Assembly: GCF_014237875.1 (NCBI RefSeq)
Contig: NZ_JACJVJ010000001.1
Location: 980,501-1,044,500, forward strand
Length of the DNA: 64,000 nt
Direction of reading: 5' to 3'
Origin: Parasphingopyxis marina
GTDB lineage: Bacteria > Pseudomonadota > Alphaproteobacteria > Sphingomonadales > Sphingomonadaceae
In this document: piece after piece, positions 28,351 to 62,598 of the stretch
How positions within the stretch are numbered: position 1 is the stretch's first letter
How the letters are laid out: each line of letters begins with the position of its first letter
The notes under the pieces: model-generated
Database searches by the model: none
What the model was told of the DNA's origin: nothing
What the model saw: the letters and a program-made list of their open reading frames with translations, nothing else
Program-made: the position numbers and the translations under genes

Positions 28351-28476
28351 CTATTCGGCGACGTCTTCGACGGTCTCGCCGACGCTTTGCACATCGCGGC
28401 CGACACCGGCGACGGTATTGCACGCCGAAACCGCCAGGGCGGCGGTTACGATGGCGATGGAAATCAGATGACGCAT
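28351..28476 (-). CDS. Entericidin A/B-family small lipoprotein
   Basis: A 41-residue protein too short for standard ORF calling. It has a lipoprotein signal (MRHLISIAIVTAALAVSAC; lipobox AVSAC with the Cys at residue 19) and the entericidin-type mature part NTVAGVGRDVQSVGETV. A ribosome site AGGAG precedes the ATG. Entericidin-like genes are frequent members of alphaproteobacterial EcfG regulons, and an EcfG-like promoter lies upstream. It probably sits in the outer membrane envelope; the function is unknown. Confidence 0.85.
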   Translation of the reverse strand: MRHLISIAIVTAALAVSACNTVAGVGRDVQSVGETVEDVAE

Positions 28477-28522
28477 GATACCACTCCTCTGCTGGCCGTG
28501 GGCGATCCGCAGCCAGTGTTTC

Positions 28523-28547
28523 AATGCCGTAGAACGTCTTCGGTTCC
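28523..28547 (-). promoter_or_regulatory. Candidate EcfG promoter for the entericidin-like gene
   Basis: On the minus strand GGAAC (28543-28547) is followed after 16 bases by CATT (28523-28526). The EcfG consensus is GGAAC-N16/17-CGTT, so the -10 element has one mismatch. The predicted leader is about 40 nt. Confidence 0.5.
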
Positions 28548-28572
28548 GAAGGTAGCCGGCCTGCCGTCTGAA

Positions 28573-28629
28573 AAGGATAAAATTAAACCCGGAGACGCTG
28601 TCCGGGGGGGATGGAAGCGTCTCCGGGTT
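28573..28629 (-). terminator. Rho-independent terminator of the predicted sRNA
   Basis: The 14-bp GC-rich stem at 28629-28586 is followed on the minus strand by TAATTTTATCCTTTT (28585-28571). The U-rich tract is found only on this strand, which fixes the direction of transcription. Confidence 0.75.
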
Positions 28630-28679
28630 AATCTGTTTGGATAGCGAGAGCGGGGGGGCAAAAAGGTCGCTATCCGAGT
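28573..28679 (-). ncRNA. Predicted stress-induced small RNA with two C-loop hairpins
   Basis: Read on the minus strand, the transcript would begin near 28676-28680, just after an EcfG promoter. It has a first hairpin with a 9-bp stem GGATAGCGA/TCGCTATCC (28675-28667 with 28647-28639) and a 19-nt loop containing CCCCCCC. After an 8-9-nt linker comes a second hairpin with a perfect 14-bp stem AACCCGGAGACGCT/AGCGTCTCCGGGTT (28629-28616 with 28599-28586) and a 16-nt loop, also containing CCCCCCC. A U-rich tail follows. No open frame with a ribosome site fits inside. C-rich loops in stress sRNAs, such as Caulobacter GsrN, pair with G-rich ribosome-binding regions; the same is inferred here. Confidence 0.7.
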
Positions 28680-28684
28680 AAGAA

Positions 28685-28709
28685 AACGACGCTCGCGGGC
28701 TTTGGTTCC
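28685..28709 (-). promoter_or_regulatory. Consensus EcfG (general stress response) promoter
   Basis: On the minus strand GGAAC (28709-28705), exactly 16 bases, then CGTT (28688-28685): a perfect match to the published alphaproteobacterial EcfG consensus. It lies a few bases upstream of the predicted sRNA. The AT-rich stretch between it and the end of the phyP-like gene (28710-28800) contains no other feature that I can identify. Confidence 0.75.
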
Positions 28710-28800
28710 GAAAAAAAATGCGAAAATTCAAAAAATATCGAAAAGTCTTATTTATCAGATATTTAATTGGACAAAAATATGCAGGTTTTTCCGTTTTGCG

Positions 28801-30366
28801 CTACAGATAGGGAATTTCGATGCAGAATCTGGTGCCTTTTTCGGTTTCGTGCAGCGCGGATCGCAACTGCCGTGCCAGCCCTTCGGTAACCCGCTGATAC
28901 CGGACGGATTCGGGCCGTATGGAAGCGGTTTCCAGCGCCGGAGCGATCAGGCAGAGCTGCGCACAATCCTCTGACAGCGTCGTAACCGCTATCGCGATGT
29001 CGACATTTTTTTCGCACAGCATCGCCAGTTCCACGAGCTCCGTGACAAGAAAGGCAACCGGCGCGGCAATGTCCTGGCCGACACGAATGGCCGCGACGTC
29101 CAGAGTGATGGCGATCCGGGTATCGGGCGGCGCGCTTTGCTGCAGGCCCGATGCCAGCTCGGCCAATACCGGACGGATCGGCAGGCCTTCGGCCTTGTCG
29201 AGTTCGGCGAACAGGTTGCGCTGGACGATCGCCAGCGCGTCGACCCGGCGCTGGATCGACGCATAGGCCGCGGCACTGTCTTCCGACTTGGCCGAGCGCG
29301 CGTGCAGGCTCAGCAAGCTCGCTACGATCTGGAGGTTGTTCTTGACCCGGTGGTGGACCTCGCGGGTCAGTCGCGTCTGTTCGGTCAGGCCGGCGGCGAG
29401 CTTCACCTCATTGTCTCGCAGCTGGACCACGGCCTCGTCGAAGGCCCGGCCGAGGTCGCGAATCTCGATGGCCGATATGGGATCGTCCGAAAGCTCGAAA
29501 TCGCCGCCATATGCTCCATGTTCGATCACCGCCCGGCGCAGGTGGGAGAGCGGCGTGAGCAACAGCCGCCCAACGGCTATCCAGCCGAGCACCGCTGCGG
29601 CAAGCCACATCAGGATCGGCAGCGCGACCGAGAGCCTCTCTGCGGGCCGGAGTGGCACCGCATTATAGGCCATGACGAGGGTAAGCTGGCCGTCGGCGAC
29701 AGCTTCGTGAAGCTGGTCGACATTGCGTTCATCCACCTCCGATCGCCAGGGATGCACGACATGCTCGGCATCGTCCTGGATCAGCGAGATACTGAACTGG
29801 TCGATCAGTTCAGCGGGTTCGCTCAAGGCCCTGACTGTTTCAGGAGGAAGCACGGCCATGCCTATCGGATGTTGCATGGGACCGGACACCACCAGCATTA
29901 CCGAGCCATCCTCGGCGTTCAGCGACACCGCGGCCGCCTGTTCGGCCGGGAGGACCGGGATCGGCGGGGGCATAAAGCCTTCGCTGACGCAGTTGGCATC
30001 GTGGATATCGTCGATGATGGCGTACTGGACTTCATAATCCTCGATTGCGGCCAGCGCGTCGAGCGTCAGCATACAGCCTGCATCGCTGGCGGGATGGACG
30101 CTCGGAAACGCGGTTGTCGCCGCTCTCAGGCTGATTTCGGTACGGTCGATGGCGTCGGTCAGTTGCCGGGCGCTGGCTTCGGCGAGCAGCCGCGCCCCGG
30201 AATTACGGCTCTCGCGGGCCCCGTCGGCCGCCTGGATCGATGACACGATTGCGACAAGTCCGAGGGGCAGTAGCGCCAAGCTCAGCAGAATCAGCATCTT
30301 GAGACCGGTCGGCAGCGCGGCCAGCCGCGTTCTCAGATGAGTGTGGGAACCGTTCCCGGATGTCAT
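28801..30366 (-). CDS. phyP: PhyP-like HisKA_2 sensor protein with degenerate ATPase domain
   Basis: A 521-residue membrane protein. Membrane spans lie at about residues 22-45 and 245-268, flanking a periplasmic sensor domain. A HAMP-like linker and a HisKA_2 dimerisation domain follow, with the phospho-acceptor segment REVHHRVKNNLQIVASLLSLHAR. The ATPase domain is degenerate: the N-box reads TELVELAM, without the usual Asn, and no DNGxG motif follows. This matches PhyP of Sphingomonas melonis Fr1, encoded in the ecfG locus and described as a negative regulator acting on PhyR. Phosphatase action on PhyR is inferred. It lies 33 bp after nepR on the same strand. Confidence 0.8.
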   Translation of the reverse strand: MTSGNGSHTHLRTRLAALPTGLKMLILLSLALLPLGLVAIVSSIQAADGARESRNSGARLLAEASARQLTDAIDRTEISLRAATTAFPSVHPASDAGCMLTLDALAAIEDYEVQYAIIDDIHDANCVSEGFMPPPIPVLPAEQAAAVSLNAEDGSVMLVVSGPMQHPIGMAVLPPETVRALSEPAELIDQFSISLIQDDAEHVVHPWRSEVDERNVDQLHEAVADGQLTLVMAYNAVPLRPAERLSVALPILMWLAAAVLGWIAVGRLLLTPLSHLRRAVIEHGAYGGDFELSDDPISAIEIRDLGRAFDEAVVQLRDNEVKLAAGLTEQTRLTREVHHRVKNNLQIVASLLSLHARSAKSEDSAAAYASIQRRVDALAIVQRNLFAELDKAEGLPIRPVLAELASGLQQSAPPDTRIAITLDVAAIRVGQDIAAPVAFLVTELVELAMLCEKNVDIAIAVTTLSEDCAQLCLIAPALETASIRPESVRYQRVTEGLARQLRSALHETEKGTRFCIEIPYL

Positions 30367-30399: not shown

Positions 30400-30588
30400 T
30401 CAGTTGAGCTTGCCGAGCAGTTCCAGCATTTCCGAAGGGATGTCTTCCTTGACAGCGTCGTCATAGACGGAGCGGAGGGCGTCGCCGATATCGTCGGCGT
30501 CCCCCGGTTTCTCTTCGCCAGCGCGGCGCCCCTTGTCGGGGTGCCGGGGCGTCCCCGCTCTGTCGCCTTCCGAAGCCAAACCGGTCAA
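30400..30588 (-). CDS. nepR: Anti-sigma factor NepR
   Basis: A 62-residue protein with a disordered, charged N terminus and the NepR core IGDALRSVYDDAVKEDIPSEMLELLGKL. NepR sequesters EcfG until phosphorylated PhyR binds NepR through its sigma-like domain. The open frame starts with TTG, preceded by GGAG only one base away; a second TTG three codons later has better spacing. No ATG is available, so the start is uncertain. It is transcribed toward phyP and divergently from phyR. Confidence 0.85.
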   Translation of the reverse strand: MTGLASEGDRAGTPRHPDKGRRAGEEKPGDADDIGDALRSVYDDAVKEDIPSEMLELLGKLN

Positions 30589-30725: not shown

Positions 30726-30808
30726 GTACCAAGACCTTTGCTCTTGAGTTGTGTCGGCGCGAGCGCCTACGCAATGATCTTATTACCCGTGGGAGGGAGA
30801 GACTATCG

Positions 30809-31621
30809 ATGGCGTCACTGGGTGAGCAACTGGCACCGCATCTGCCGCTTCTGAGGCGCTTTTCGCGCGCATTGACCGGAAATCAGCAACAAGGGGACGC
30901 GTTCGTCCGCCTGACGCTGGAAACGATCGTTGCCGCGCCGGACATGTTTCCCACCGACGTCGATCCGCGGCTGGGCCTGTATCGGCAATTTCTCGACGTC
31001 TGGGCCTCGACCCGCAATGCCGATGTCGCGACGGAAAATATTGCCGATGAGCGTGAACGCGAAGGAATCGCGAGCGCGCGCCTGGCAATGATCGACATGG
31101 TTTCGCGCCAGGCGCTTTTGCTGGCCGAGGTCGAAGGCTTCGGCATCGCCGACATCGGCTATCTGCTCGATCGGCCGGTGCTGGAGGTCGAAGCCCTGAT
31201 CGCCGATGCGCGCGCCGAGATCGAGGGGCAGCTCAAGACCGATGTGCTGATCATCGAAGACGAACCGATCATCGCGATGGACCTGGAAAGCATCGTCCGC
31301 GATGTCGGCCATGAGGTGACGGGTATCGCCGTGACACGCGACGAAGCGGTCGCGGAGGCCCATGCCAAGGCCCCTGGCCTCGTCCTCGCCGATATTCAAC
31401 TGGCCGACGACAGTTCGGGCATCGATGCGGTGCAGGACATTCTGACGGAGATCGACGTACCGGTGATCTTCATTACCGCCTTTCCGGAACGGCTGCTGAC
31501 CGGCGAGCGCCCCGAACCGGCCTTTCTGATTACCAAGCCGTTCCTGCATTCGACGGTAAAGGCCGCGATCGCGCAGGCACTGTTCTTCAACCGCGCTACC
31601 CTGCCGCTGGCGGACGCGTAA
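30809..31621 (+). CDS. phyR: General stress response regulator PhyR
   Basis: PhyR is the anti-anti-sigma switch of the general stress response. The 270-residue protein has an N-terminal ECF sigma-like domain (residues 1-140) and a C-terminal receiver domain starting at VLIIEDEPIIAMD. The acidic pair is EDE, the phospho-acceptor Asp lies in LADIQLADDSSG, and the conserved Lys lies in ITKPF. When phosphorylated it binds NepR and frees EcfG. The ATG at 30809 follows GGGAGGGAGA; upstream codons in frame are not family-like. Confidence 0.95.
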   Translation: MASLGEQLAPHLPLLRRFSRALTGNQQQGDAFVRLTLETIVAAPDMFPTDVDPRLGLYRQFLDVWASTRNADVATENIADEREREGIASARLAMIDMVSRQALLLAEVEGFGIADIGYLLDRPVLEVEALIADARAEIEGQLKTDVLIIEDEPIIAMDLESIVRDVGHEVTGIAVTRDEAVAEAHAKAPGLVLADIQLADDSSGIDAVQDILTEIDVPVIFITAFPERLLTGERPEPAFLITKPFLHSTVKAAIAQALFFNRATLPLADA

Positions 31622-31832: not shown

Positions 31833-31937
31833 TCGGGAAACGATTGGGTCGCACTGGTTATTCCTTTAGCTCGAACGTAAGTTGTTGGCATTGTTACCCG
31901 AGTCGTGTCGGGTGGAGTGCTGGCGGGGGGCGTGTGC

Positions 31938-32573
31938 ATGGCTGACCGACCGAAACAGTCGGATGAGGCCGATGAGCGGACGGACAAGCCGGAACCGCTC
32001 AGCGACGCCGATTTCAAGGATCAGCTGGCCGAGATCATTCCGCATCTGCGCGCCTTCGGGCGCTCGCTGTCGGGCAATCGCGACACCGCCGACGATCTCG
32101 TCCAGGAAACACTGCTCAAGGCATGGGCCGCGCGTGAACGCTTCCAGGCGGGCACGAACATGCGGGCCTGGACCTTCATCATCCTGCGCAACATCTTCCT
32201 CTCGCAGATGCGCCGCGCGCGCTTCAAGGGGGAGTGGGACGAGCTCACCGCCGACAAGCTGCTCGCGGCGCCGGCCAGTCAGGACCGGCATGTCGAGCTG
32301 GGCGATATGCAGCGCGCATTGATGGAATTGCCCGAGCCGCAGCGCGAGGCGCTGATCCTCGTTGGCGCGGGCGGTTTCGCCTATGAAGAGGCTGCCGAGA
32401 TCTGCGGTTGCGCGGTCGGCACGATCAAGAGCCGCGTTGCCCGTGCGCGGGCCGCGCTCGAAACCGTGATGGAAGATGGCAGCATGAAATCGCGCCGCTC
32501 GGTAAAAGGCGGGGATGAACGCACCGTGCTTCAGGAAATCATGAATGAGGTCGATGAACTCAGCAATCGCTGA
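31938..32573 (+). CDS. ecfG: General stress response sigma factor EcfG
   Basis: An ECF-type sigma factor of about 211 residues. Region 2 includes HLRAFGRSLSGNRDTADDLVQETLLKAW, and region 4 includes ALMELPEPQREALILVGAGG and the helix-turn-helix AAEICGCAVGTIKSRVARAR. These match the EcfG (ECF15) group. It recognises GGAAC-N16/17-CGTT promoters, as seen in this locus. ATG at 31938 was chosen; GTG codons 11 and 7 codons upstream are possible. Its stop is 9 bp from the stop of the convergent nepR-like gene. Confidence 0.93.
   Translation: MADRPKQSDEADERTDKPEPLSDADFKDQLAEIIPHLRAFGRSLSGNRDTADDLVQETLLKAWAARERFQAGTNMRAWTFIILRNIFLSQMRRARFKGEWDELTADKLLAAPASQDRHVELGDMQRALMELPEPQREALILVGAGGFAYEEAAEICGCAVGTIKSRVARARAALETVMEDGSMKSRRSVKGGDERTVLQEIMNEVDELSNR

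Positions 32574-62078: not shown

Positions 62079-62598
<520 letters not shown>

Follow-up and report, generated by a model that had tools for sequence, protein, structure and literature searches.

A putative EcfG-driven small RNA with two C-rich loops at the general stress response locus of Parasphingopyxis marina and other Sphingomonadaceae

Results

A two-hairpin element beside the stress response genes

The window analysed here, i.e. the whole stretch of 64,000 nucleotides of the Parasphingopyxis marina genome to which all coordinates refer, carries a general stress response (GSR) locus. According to Pfam, a gene encoding a HWE/HisKA_2 histidine kinase (28801–30366; PF07568, PF07536) and the anti-sigma factor gene nepR (30400–30588; PF18557) are located on the minus strand, while phyR (30806–31621; PF22029, PF22233, PF00072) and the sigma factor gene ecfG (31938–32573; Sigma70_r2/r4_2) are divergent from them on the plus strand. 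A gene encoding an EcnA/B-like entericidin (28354–28476, minus strand; PF08085) is also present, and a phospholipase D-like gene (Pfam) is convergent. The element described below is located between the entericidin gene, its downstream neighbour, and the kinase-nepR/phyR-ecfG genes, the kinase being its upstream neighbour on the same strand.

Read on the minus strand, the element starts with an EcfG-type promoter (28685–28709), composed of a -35 box GGAAC (28709–28705), 16 nucleotides and a -10 box CGTT (28688–28685). The 9 nt separating the -10 box from the first hairpin (28676–28684) form the putative start region, transcription being expected to start at or just 5' of this hairpin. Hairpin 1 (28639–28675) has a perfect 9-bp stem (GGATAGCGA/TCGCTATCC) and displays a run of seven C in its loop (28652–28658; context UUUUUGCCCCCCCGCUCU), which a predicted 2-bp GC/GC helix closes. 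After a 9-nt linker, hairpin 2 (28586–28629) has a perfect 14-bp stem (AACCCGGAGACGCT/AGCGTCTCCGGGTT) and is likely an intrinsic terminator. Its loop also contains C7 (28604–28610; context CCAUCCCCCCCGGA), which the predicted duplexes described below designate as the proposed main target-pairing site. A U-rich tail with an imperfect U tract follows (28575–28587; UUUAAUUUUAUCC), its first two bases being stem bases. The promoter, the two perfect C7-loop hairpins of 9 and 14 bp and the U-rich tail announced in the original prediction are thus all present.

This region is predicted to fold with a minimum free energy of -47.3 kcal/mol (z = -7.45), and none of 200 shuffled sequences was equally stable. 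Dinucleotide shuffling of the 128-nt region, repeated 2000 times, never produced even one perfect stem of at least 9 bp topped by a C7 loop. The window contains 4 C7 runs, versus 12.3 expected, and stems longer than 5 bp are found under only 2 of these 4 runs, which are the two loops of the element. As a window-level count, this scarcity of C7/G7 is compatible with an avoidance of strong G tracts. BLASTN detected a single copy of the element in its own genome.

Conservation of the structure

We used BLASTN against 148 relatives and obtained hits with E < 0.001 in 29 genomes, including the genome of origin. Of the 30 loci retrieved in this way, all but L025 then served to build a covariance model (R1; 29 loci). 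In addition, a scan with a pattern restricted to loop 1 and the 3' side of the hairpin 1 stem, which leaves the promoter out, identified at least 119 loci. The whole RNA was found in 116 of the 119 listed loci (77 out of 80, and 39 out of 39 further ones), whereas the three others (L081, L096 and L129, with the titles Opitutia, Rhizobiales and Amycolatopsis) match the pattern without carrying the RNA. The scan and the genome set share several contigs, and these two sets are therefore not independent. All counts of synteny, reading frames and loops given below rest on the 77 loci only, not on the 39 further ones.

Both hairpins are maintained by compensatory changes. In a MAFFT alignment (A1), 20 of the 24 supported pairs show such changes. 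In an alignment fitted to the model and including divergent members (A4; 62 rows, 60 of them distinct), 97.3% of the cells are paired and double changes affect 22 of the 24 pairs (8 out of 9 in hairpin 1 and 14 out of 15 model pairs in hairpin 2). None of 500 shuffles of A4 reached any of these measures, and pairing fell to 29–46% when the partners were shifted. Covariation is fairly tested in A1 and A4, because in another alignment (A2) helix 1 was nearly invariant by virtue of the search pattern that fixed it; a further one (A3) was discarded, 7 of its 71 rows being antisense matches of the same places. Since the hairpins are conserved with covariation, the two-hairpin element is a real conserved RNA gene as judged by comparative sequence analysis.

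Two loops might raise the avidity of the RNA, as the original prediction suggested. They evolve unlike each other, with the reservation that the scan pattern limits loop 1. In the 77 listed loci, loop 1 is C7 in 67 cases and C6–C8 in all of them, the pattern itself requiring at least C6. Loop 2, present in 76 of these loci, ranges between C6 and C13, and its C-run is preceded by CCCU or ACCU in 63 of the 76. With 6 to 13 C between species, the homopolymer of loop 2 could also vary within species and tune the RNA.

Loop 1 is also embedded in a context, UUUUGCCCCCCCGCUC, that is conserved more strictly than pairing of its C-run with a G tract requires. Such a constraint would be expected if the C-loops bound an RNA-binding protein or another RNA, as in a sponge, instead of mRNA leaders. 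We consider this unlikely, as the C-loop RNAs tested in the parts of the literature consulted pair with G-rich mRNA (PMC5869019, PMC10470900), and the strict context may simply be structural, given the predicted GC/GC pairs that close the C-run.

Conservation of the EcfG-type promoter

The pattern GGAAC/CGTT with spacers of 15–18 nt has 3 matches in the window for 1.9 expected. At such a chance level, the promoter by itself was dropped as evidence for a gene. Its conservation is informative: all 116 listed loci that bear the RNA possess GGAAC followed by 16 or 17 nucleotides and a -10 box that is CGTT in 102 loci and differs from it by one letter in the others. These boxes are CGTT (67), TGTT (6), GGTT (2), CATT (1) and AGTT (1) in the 77 loci, and CGTT (35), TGTT (2), CATT (1) and GGTT (1) in the 39 further ones. 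In comparison, the loose form of the promoter present in these 116 loci was detected in only 32 of 7735 control windows, and the strict form in 69 of the 77 loci versus 21 of 7700 control windows. Moreover, the -10 box ends 9 nt 5' of hairpin 1 in 71 of the 77 loci.

The same motif is known from related bacteria. According to the sections consulted, the GSR regulon of Sphingopyxis granuli is enriched for GGAAC-N16-CGTT; in vitro transcription decreased when TGTT or CATT replaced CGTT, although promoters with these boxes were still functional, CATT being a weaker working -10 box (PMC7083833). The motif of S. melonis was given as GGAAC-N17-20-GTT in the part of the study consulted (PMC6599016). 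From the conserved promoter, we infer that EcfG controls the RNA.

A last possibility is that no gene exists here and that the hairpins are inverted repeats without relation to each other, or the remnant of an element. Promoter-like sites do arise by chance in the window, but covariation, a fixed distance to the promoter and a fixed position in many species make this reading extremely improbable; as far as conservation can refute it, it is refuted.

An RNA gene distinct from its entericidin neighbour

The usual gene order, observed in most of the 77 listed loci, is tatC> <ecn <RNA <kinase <nepR phyR> ecfG>. Matches to the kinase were found near the RNA in 70 of these loci, to TatC in 64, to entericidin (ecn) in 60, to PhyR in 57, to EcfG in 52 and to nepR in 43; many loci are clipped by the 8-kb limit, and 4 of the 52 EcfG matches (L098, L101, L116 and L135) coincide with a PhyR match.

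In the 60 loci with an entericidin match, ecn is located 3' of the RNA on the same strand. This arrangement, together with the imperfect U tract after hairpin 2, which makes read-through possible, would suit a structured 5' leader of entericidin, a single EcfG transcript running through both hairpins and ecn being regulated in cis. A promoter of the strict CGTT-like form precedes ecn in only 2 of these 60 loci, which also favours a leader. However, a loose promoter (GGAAC-N15-18-NNTT) precedes ecn in 56 of the 60 loci, versus 102 of 3850 controls, and its -10 box is CATT in 39 of them. In the window, such an EcfG-like promoter (GGAAC-N16-CATT; 28523–28547, minus strand) precedes the entericidin gene and is separate from that of the RNA. 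The distance between the RNA and ecn, mostly about 80–200 nt, also varies. Furthermore, in 5 of the loci where no ecn match was detected (L092, L131, L107, L078 and L110), tatC converges towards the RNA and is found 28–58 nt from its 3' side. This gap is too small for an entericidin-sized gene, which supports the RNA as a stand-alone unit. In the other loci without an ecn match, the tatC stop is unreliably placed (5 loci), the gap exceeds 100 nt (3 loci) or no tatC match was detected (4 loci). A leader is thus quite unlikely in our view.

We also examined the coding capacity of the element. The original prediction had stated that no open reading frame fits, and this must be amended in its literal sense, for a mechanically called frame of 126 codons (28351–28731, minus strand) spans the RNA and continues into the entericidin gene. 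The entericidin frame is, however, open backward across the RNA in only 18 of the 60 listed loci with an entericidin match; the 126-codon frame is therefore no conserved protein. From the separate promoter of ecn, the loci in which tatC adjoins the RNA and the poorly open ecn frame, the RNA is therefore most likely, on sequence grounds, an independent gene, neither a leader nor a protein.

Distribution among Sphingomonadales

In the order, 297 genomes were scanned with the covariance model R1, and 97 gave a match at E ≤ 0.01. At least 7 of these 97 genomes are doubtful, as they rest solely on weak, chance-like places, and the one match outside the family of the window (G134) is regarded as chance. 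R1 also matched 44 of the 148 relatives. At the level of the class, matches were obtained in only 3 of 337 genomes: the genome of origin, one more member of its family and one genome of a different family (G458). The loci of the pattern scan mostly belong to Sphingomonas; Sphingorhabdus, Stakelama, Sphingosinicella, Sphingomicrobium, Hephaestia and Parasphingopyxis are also represented among the matches listed. The RNA thus appears largely restricted to a single family, Sphingomonadaceae according to the listed matches.

We then compared the presence of the RNA with that of the stress locus. Among the 148 relatives, 89 belong to the family of the window; R1 matched 43 of the 82 that possess a PF22029 match and none of the 7 that lack it. 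This domain (PhyR_sigma2) matches EcfG as well as PhyR, and at least 2 of the 43 matches (G046 and G057) resemble chance. The remaining 39 of the 82 PF22029-positive genomes gave no match with R1, whose search filters lose weak matches. The conservation of stems, C-loops and promoter in relatives with a preserved kinase-nepR-phyR locus, like the covariance search in the order, which returned the matches and double changes reported above, gave the result that the original prediction would lead one to expect.

Among the weak R1 matches, 20 places were inspected. The promoter was detected by script in 7 of them and by eye in 3 more (L188, L193 and L194, with GGAAC-N16-AGTT), and ecn and/or tatC adjoin 8 of these 10 places, all but L181 and L187. 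The other 10 places, with neither promoter nor ecn/tatC neighbour, were taken as chance. In divergent genera (L180, L182, L183, L185, L188, L193 and L194), the letters of the stems differ widely, and the promoter, the C-loops and an ecn/tatC neighbour are kept.

Three further observations were made during this survey. First, one genome (G014) carries two copies of the RNA (L187:3980–4090 and L030:1478–1580), each with a GGAAC promoter, and no match to the proteins of the window was found near the second copy. Secondly, the match in G458 (L201:1501–1600) shows by eye a pair of hairpins, each with a C-run in its loop, and a tail that contains U; neither a GGAAC promoter nor proteins of the window or stress genes were detected nearby, and this element is either chance or another two-C-loop RNA. 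Finally, three genomes that lack the typical RNA (L186:3975–4067, L190:3959–4046 and L196:4040–4128) have a terminator hairpin whose loop is rich in C, located 3' of the gene of a small, Cys-containing, secreted-looking protein that ends in GTIGDL or similar and is located 1.3–3.4 kb from an EcfG-like match. These hairpins are possibly a C-loop RNA derived from a 3'UTR.

Comparison with known small RNAs

At the gathering threshold, Rfam 15 recognised no family at the position of the RNA, the only match in the window being a tRNA (62079–62164). Our search of the literature, limited to open-licence papers, retrieved no description of this RNA. In the papers on the EcfG transcriptomes of S. melonis and S. 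granuli, a search of the main text by terms gave no small-RNA result, apart from one reference to SuhB. The RNA family is thus new to Rfam and apparently undescribed.

The original prediction had drawn a parallel with GsrN, the EcfG/SigT-dependent small RNA of Caulobacter, and this parallel is apt in its logic of a C-rich loop acting on G-rich leaders, as far as the published sections consulted go (PMC5869019). Like the present RNA, GsrN has an EcfG-type promoter and is usually encoded near the stress locus, a proximity also seen here in the window and in the 57 of 77 listed loci with a PhyR match. It likewise exposes a 5' loop, made of six tandem C, with mostly G-rich targets. GsrN is in addition processed to a stable 5' form. 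According to the same sections, 32 of 67 co-purified RNAs were predicted to pair through this loop, 31 of them with G-rich sites, and GsrN activates katG by a loop-leader pairing that was verified by compensatory changes (PMC5869019). The two RNAs differ in that GsrN combines one C-rich loop with a second exposed region of another motif, whereas both hairpins of the present RNA bear a C-loop and the second resembles a terminator. Moreover, GsrN activates its tested target katG, while the present RNA is read, by analogy, as a repressor. BLASTn homologues of GsrN were described as confined to Caulobacteraceae in the parts consulted (PMC5869019). The R1 scan of the class detected no homologue: it gave 3 matches among 337 genomes, and 2 of these matches fall in the family of the window.

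The architecture resembles that of the 6C RNA/B11 of actinobacteria (RF01066), both RNAs having two hairpins and a run of at least six C in each loop; in the sections consulted, either loop of B11 alone is enough to repress a reporter whose leader carries six G (PMC10470900). The two RNAs differ in lineage and promoter, and RF01066 scored only 16.5 bits (E = 6.5) for a gathering threshold of 47, so that the likeness looks like convergence. Pseudomon-1/ErsA (RF01719), also with a terminator-like hairpin and a C/U-rich loop, reached 15 bits for a threshold of 50, the match being limited to hairpin 2. ErsA is driven by an envelope-stress sigma factor. Finally, the small RNA SuhB of Sphingopyxis granuli is a sphingomonad example of the kind of trans action proposed here: it binds to the leader of an mRNA, whose translation decreases; by its published description, it is set apart by its length of 61 nt, its dependence on Hfq and its high level at fast growth, and the portion of the main text consulted leaves EcfG unmentioned (PMC6563040). 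By analogy, the present RNA would work like GsrN, and it is built like 6C, although its score falls short for 6C and R1 revealed no homology to GsrN.

Candidate targets

The original prediction suggested searching for targets among ribosome-binding regions that contain G7. In the genome of P. marina, G6 followed within 2–11 nt by ATG occurs at 122 sites (overlaps counted), versus 17 for the reversed pattern, and a second genome gave 92 versus 16. The ordinary Shine-Dalgarno pattern AGGAGA-N4-8-ATG is equally enriched (186 vs. 17). The enrichment therefore shows only that G6 is used as a ribosome-binding site, and it was dropped as proof of targeting. The inspection of the P. marina sites was confined to 30 listed loci and 60 further stretches. 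Four orthologues are preceded by G6 in both genomes: a secreted DUF4402 protein (L218/L383), named by Pfam, and a surface-like protein (L257/L354), a lipoprotein (L278/L343) and another secreted protein (L280/L339), described by a crude signal-peptide filter. Signal-peptide proteins represent 16 of 45 G6-led genes versus 3 of 20 controls; this excess is small and depends on the crude filter, and it was also dropped as evidence.

The search nevertheless provided one candidate in the genus, the DUF4402 gene. Its leader keeps CCGGGGGG, with variable flanks, in the 7 genus orthologues found (three more genomes of the genus gave no match). Predicted duplexes of these leaders with their own loop 2 reach -23.5 to -27.3 kcal/mol, values that 0 to 4 of 39 control leaders match or beat, whereas those with loop 1 do not stand out, 2 to 11 of the 39 controls being equally strong. 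Because the site is not kept outside the genus, where the RNA is, DUF4402 would be at best a lineage target. The pattern CCGGGGGG-N2-9-ATG itself occurs 151 times in 14 genomes, versus 12 times when reversed, and most of the 30 loci listed for it lack a convincing start. A second, divergent DUF4402 gene was also observed beside the DUF4402 gene in the genus (L432–L438 with L453–L459), and several of these second copies have G4–G6 runs before their start too. Two other candidates were rejected. The leaders of the L280-type secreted protein keep G4–G6 in 10 of 13 cases, three second copies lacking it, and their duplexes are no better than controls. The perfect complement of loop 1, GGGGGGGCAAAA, found in the own genome (C1:17805), lies within a long open frame with an unconvincing start.

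The mRNA of ecfG could itself be the main partner, in a feedback loop on the stress response that would be a special case of pairing between the C-loops and G-rich leaders. In the window, a G6 tract is located 7 nt 5' of the ecfG ATG (31925–31930, plus strand), a possible feedback site, and the predicted duplexes of the ecfG leader (-23.9 for loop 1, -21.4 for loop 2) are stronger than those of the entericidin leader (-10.7 and -7.8). Among the 46 relatives in which the ecfG start is covered, 14 possess G4–G5 before a possible start, but none has G6 and 32 have at most G3. We therefore regard ecfG as the main partner as decidedly unlikely.

Discussion

Taken as a whole, the data are best explained by a trans-acting, EcfG-driven small RNA of Sphingomonadaceae, about 105 nt long, whose C-loops would block G-rich ribosome-binding sites. 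We give this reading a probability of about 0.72, based on sequence comparison. Once the PhyR-NepR switch is on, the EcfG RNA polymerase would transcribe the RNA from its own promoter and stop at hairpin 2. The hairpins would present their C-rich loops (GCCCCCCC for loop 1; CCU-Cn in most relatives and CCAU-C7 here for loop 2) to G-rich ribosome-binding sites, chiefly G5–G7 tracts replacing the Shine-Dalgarno sequence, and pairing would block translation. We infer transcription under stress, termination, pairing and repression from the sequence features described above. In the genus, the leader of the secreted DUF4402 protein (CCGGGGGG) would be the best candidate target, through its predicted pairing with CCCCCCGG of loop 2. 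The RNA probably acts by repression, the sign of this effect being a guess by analogy with B11/6C. A response mainly known for gene activation would thereby gain a repressive arm, with surface and secreted proteins as its plausible targets. The conservation of the RNA, its promoter and its locus supports the small-RNA arm of the general stress response that had been proposed for this organism.

A broader and more tentative scenario, to which we give less than even odds, is that sphingomonads evolved, independently of GsrN and 6C, an EcfG-made double C-loop mimic of the 16S anti-Shine-Dalgarno sequence. This RNA might shut down genes with G6 sites, i.e. those encoding secreted and surface proteins and, in some species, ecfG. 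It would provide the general stress response with repression at the post-transcriptional level, in analogy with enterobacterial sigma-E, RpoE being an ECF sigma factor whose response has a known small-RNA arm, according to the part of the literature consulted (MicA and RybB; PMC8103513).

The RNA is open to testing, as its locus is fixed and its promoter and loops are known.

Erythrobacter litoralis is a member of the sphingomonad order. A published survey reported, in the sections consulted, no apparent gsrN-like gene in this species (PMC5869019), and a stress small RNA of sphingomonads matters in this context. If the proposed scenario is true, the general stress response of Alphaproteobacteria has a repressive post-transcriptional arm, and the RNA would be a case of an identical two-C-loop design arising in both Actinobacteria and Alphaproteobacteria.
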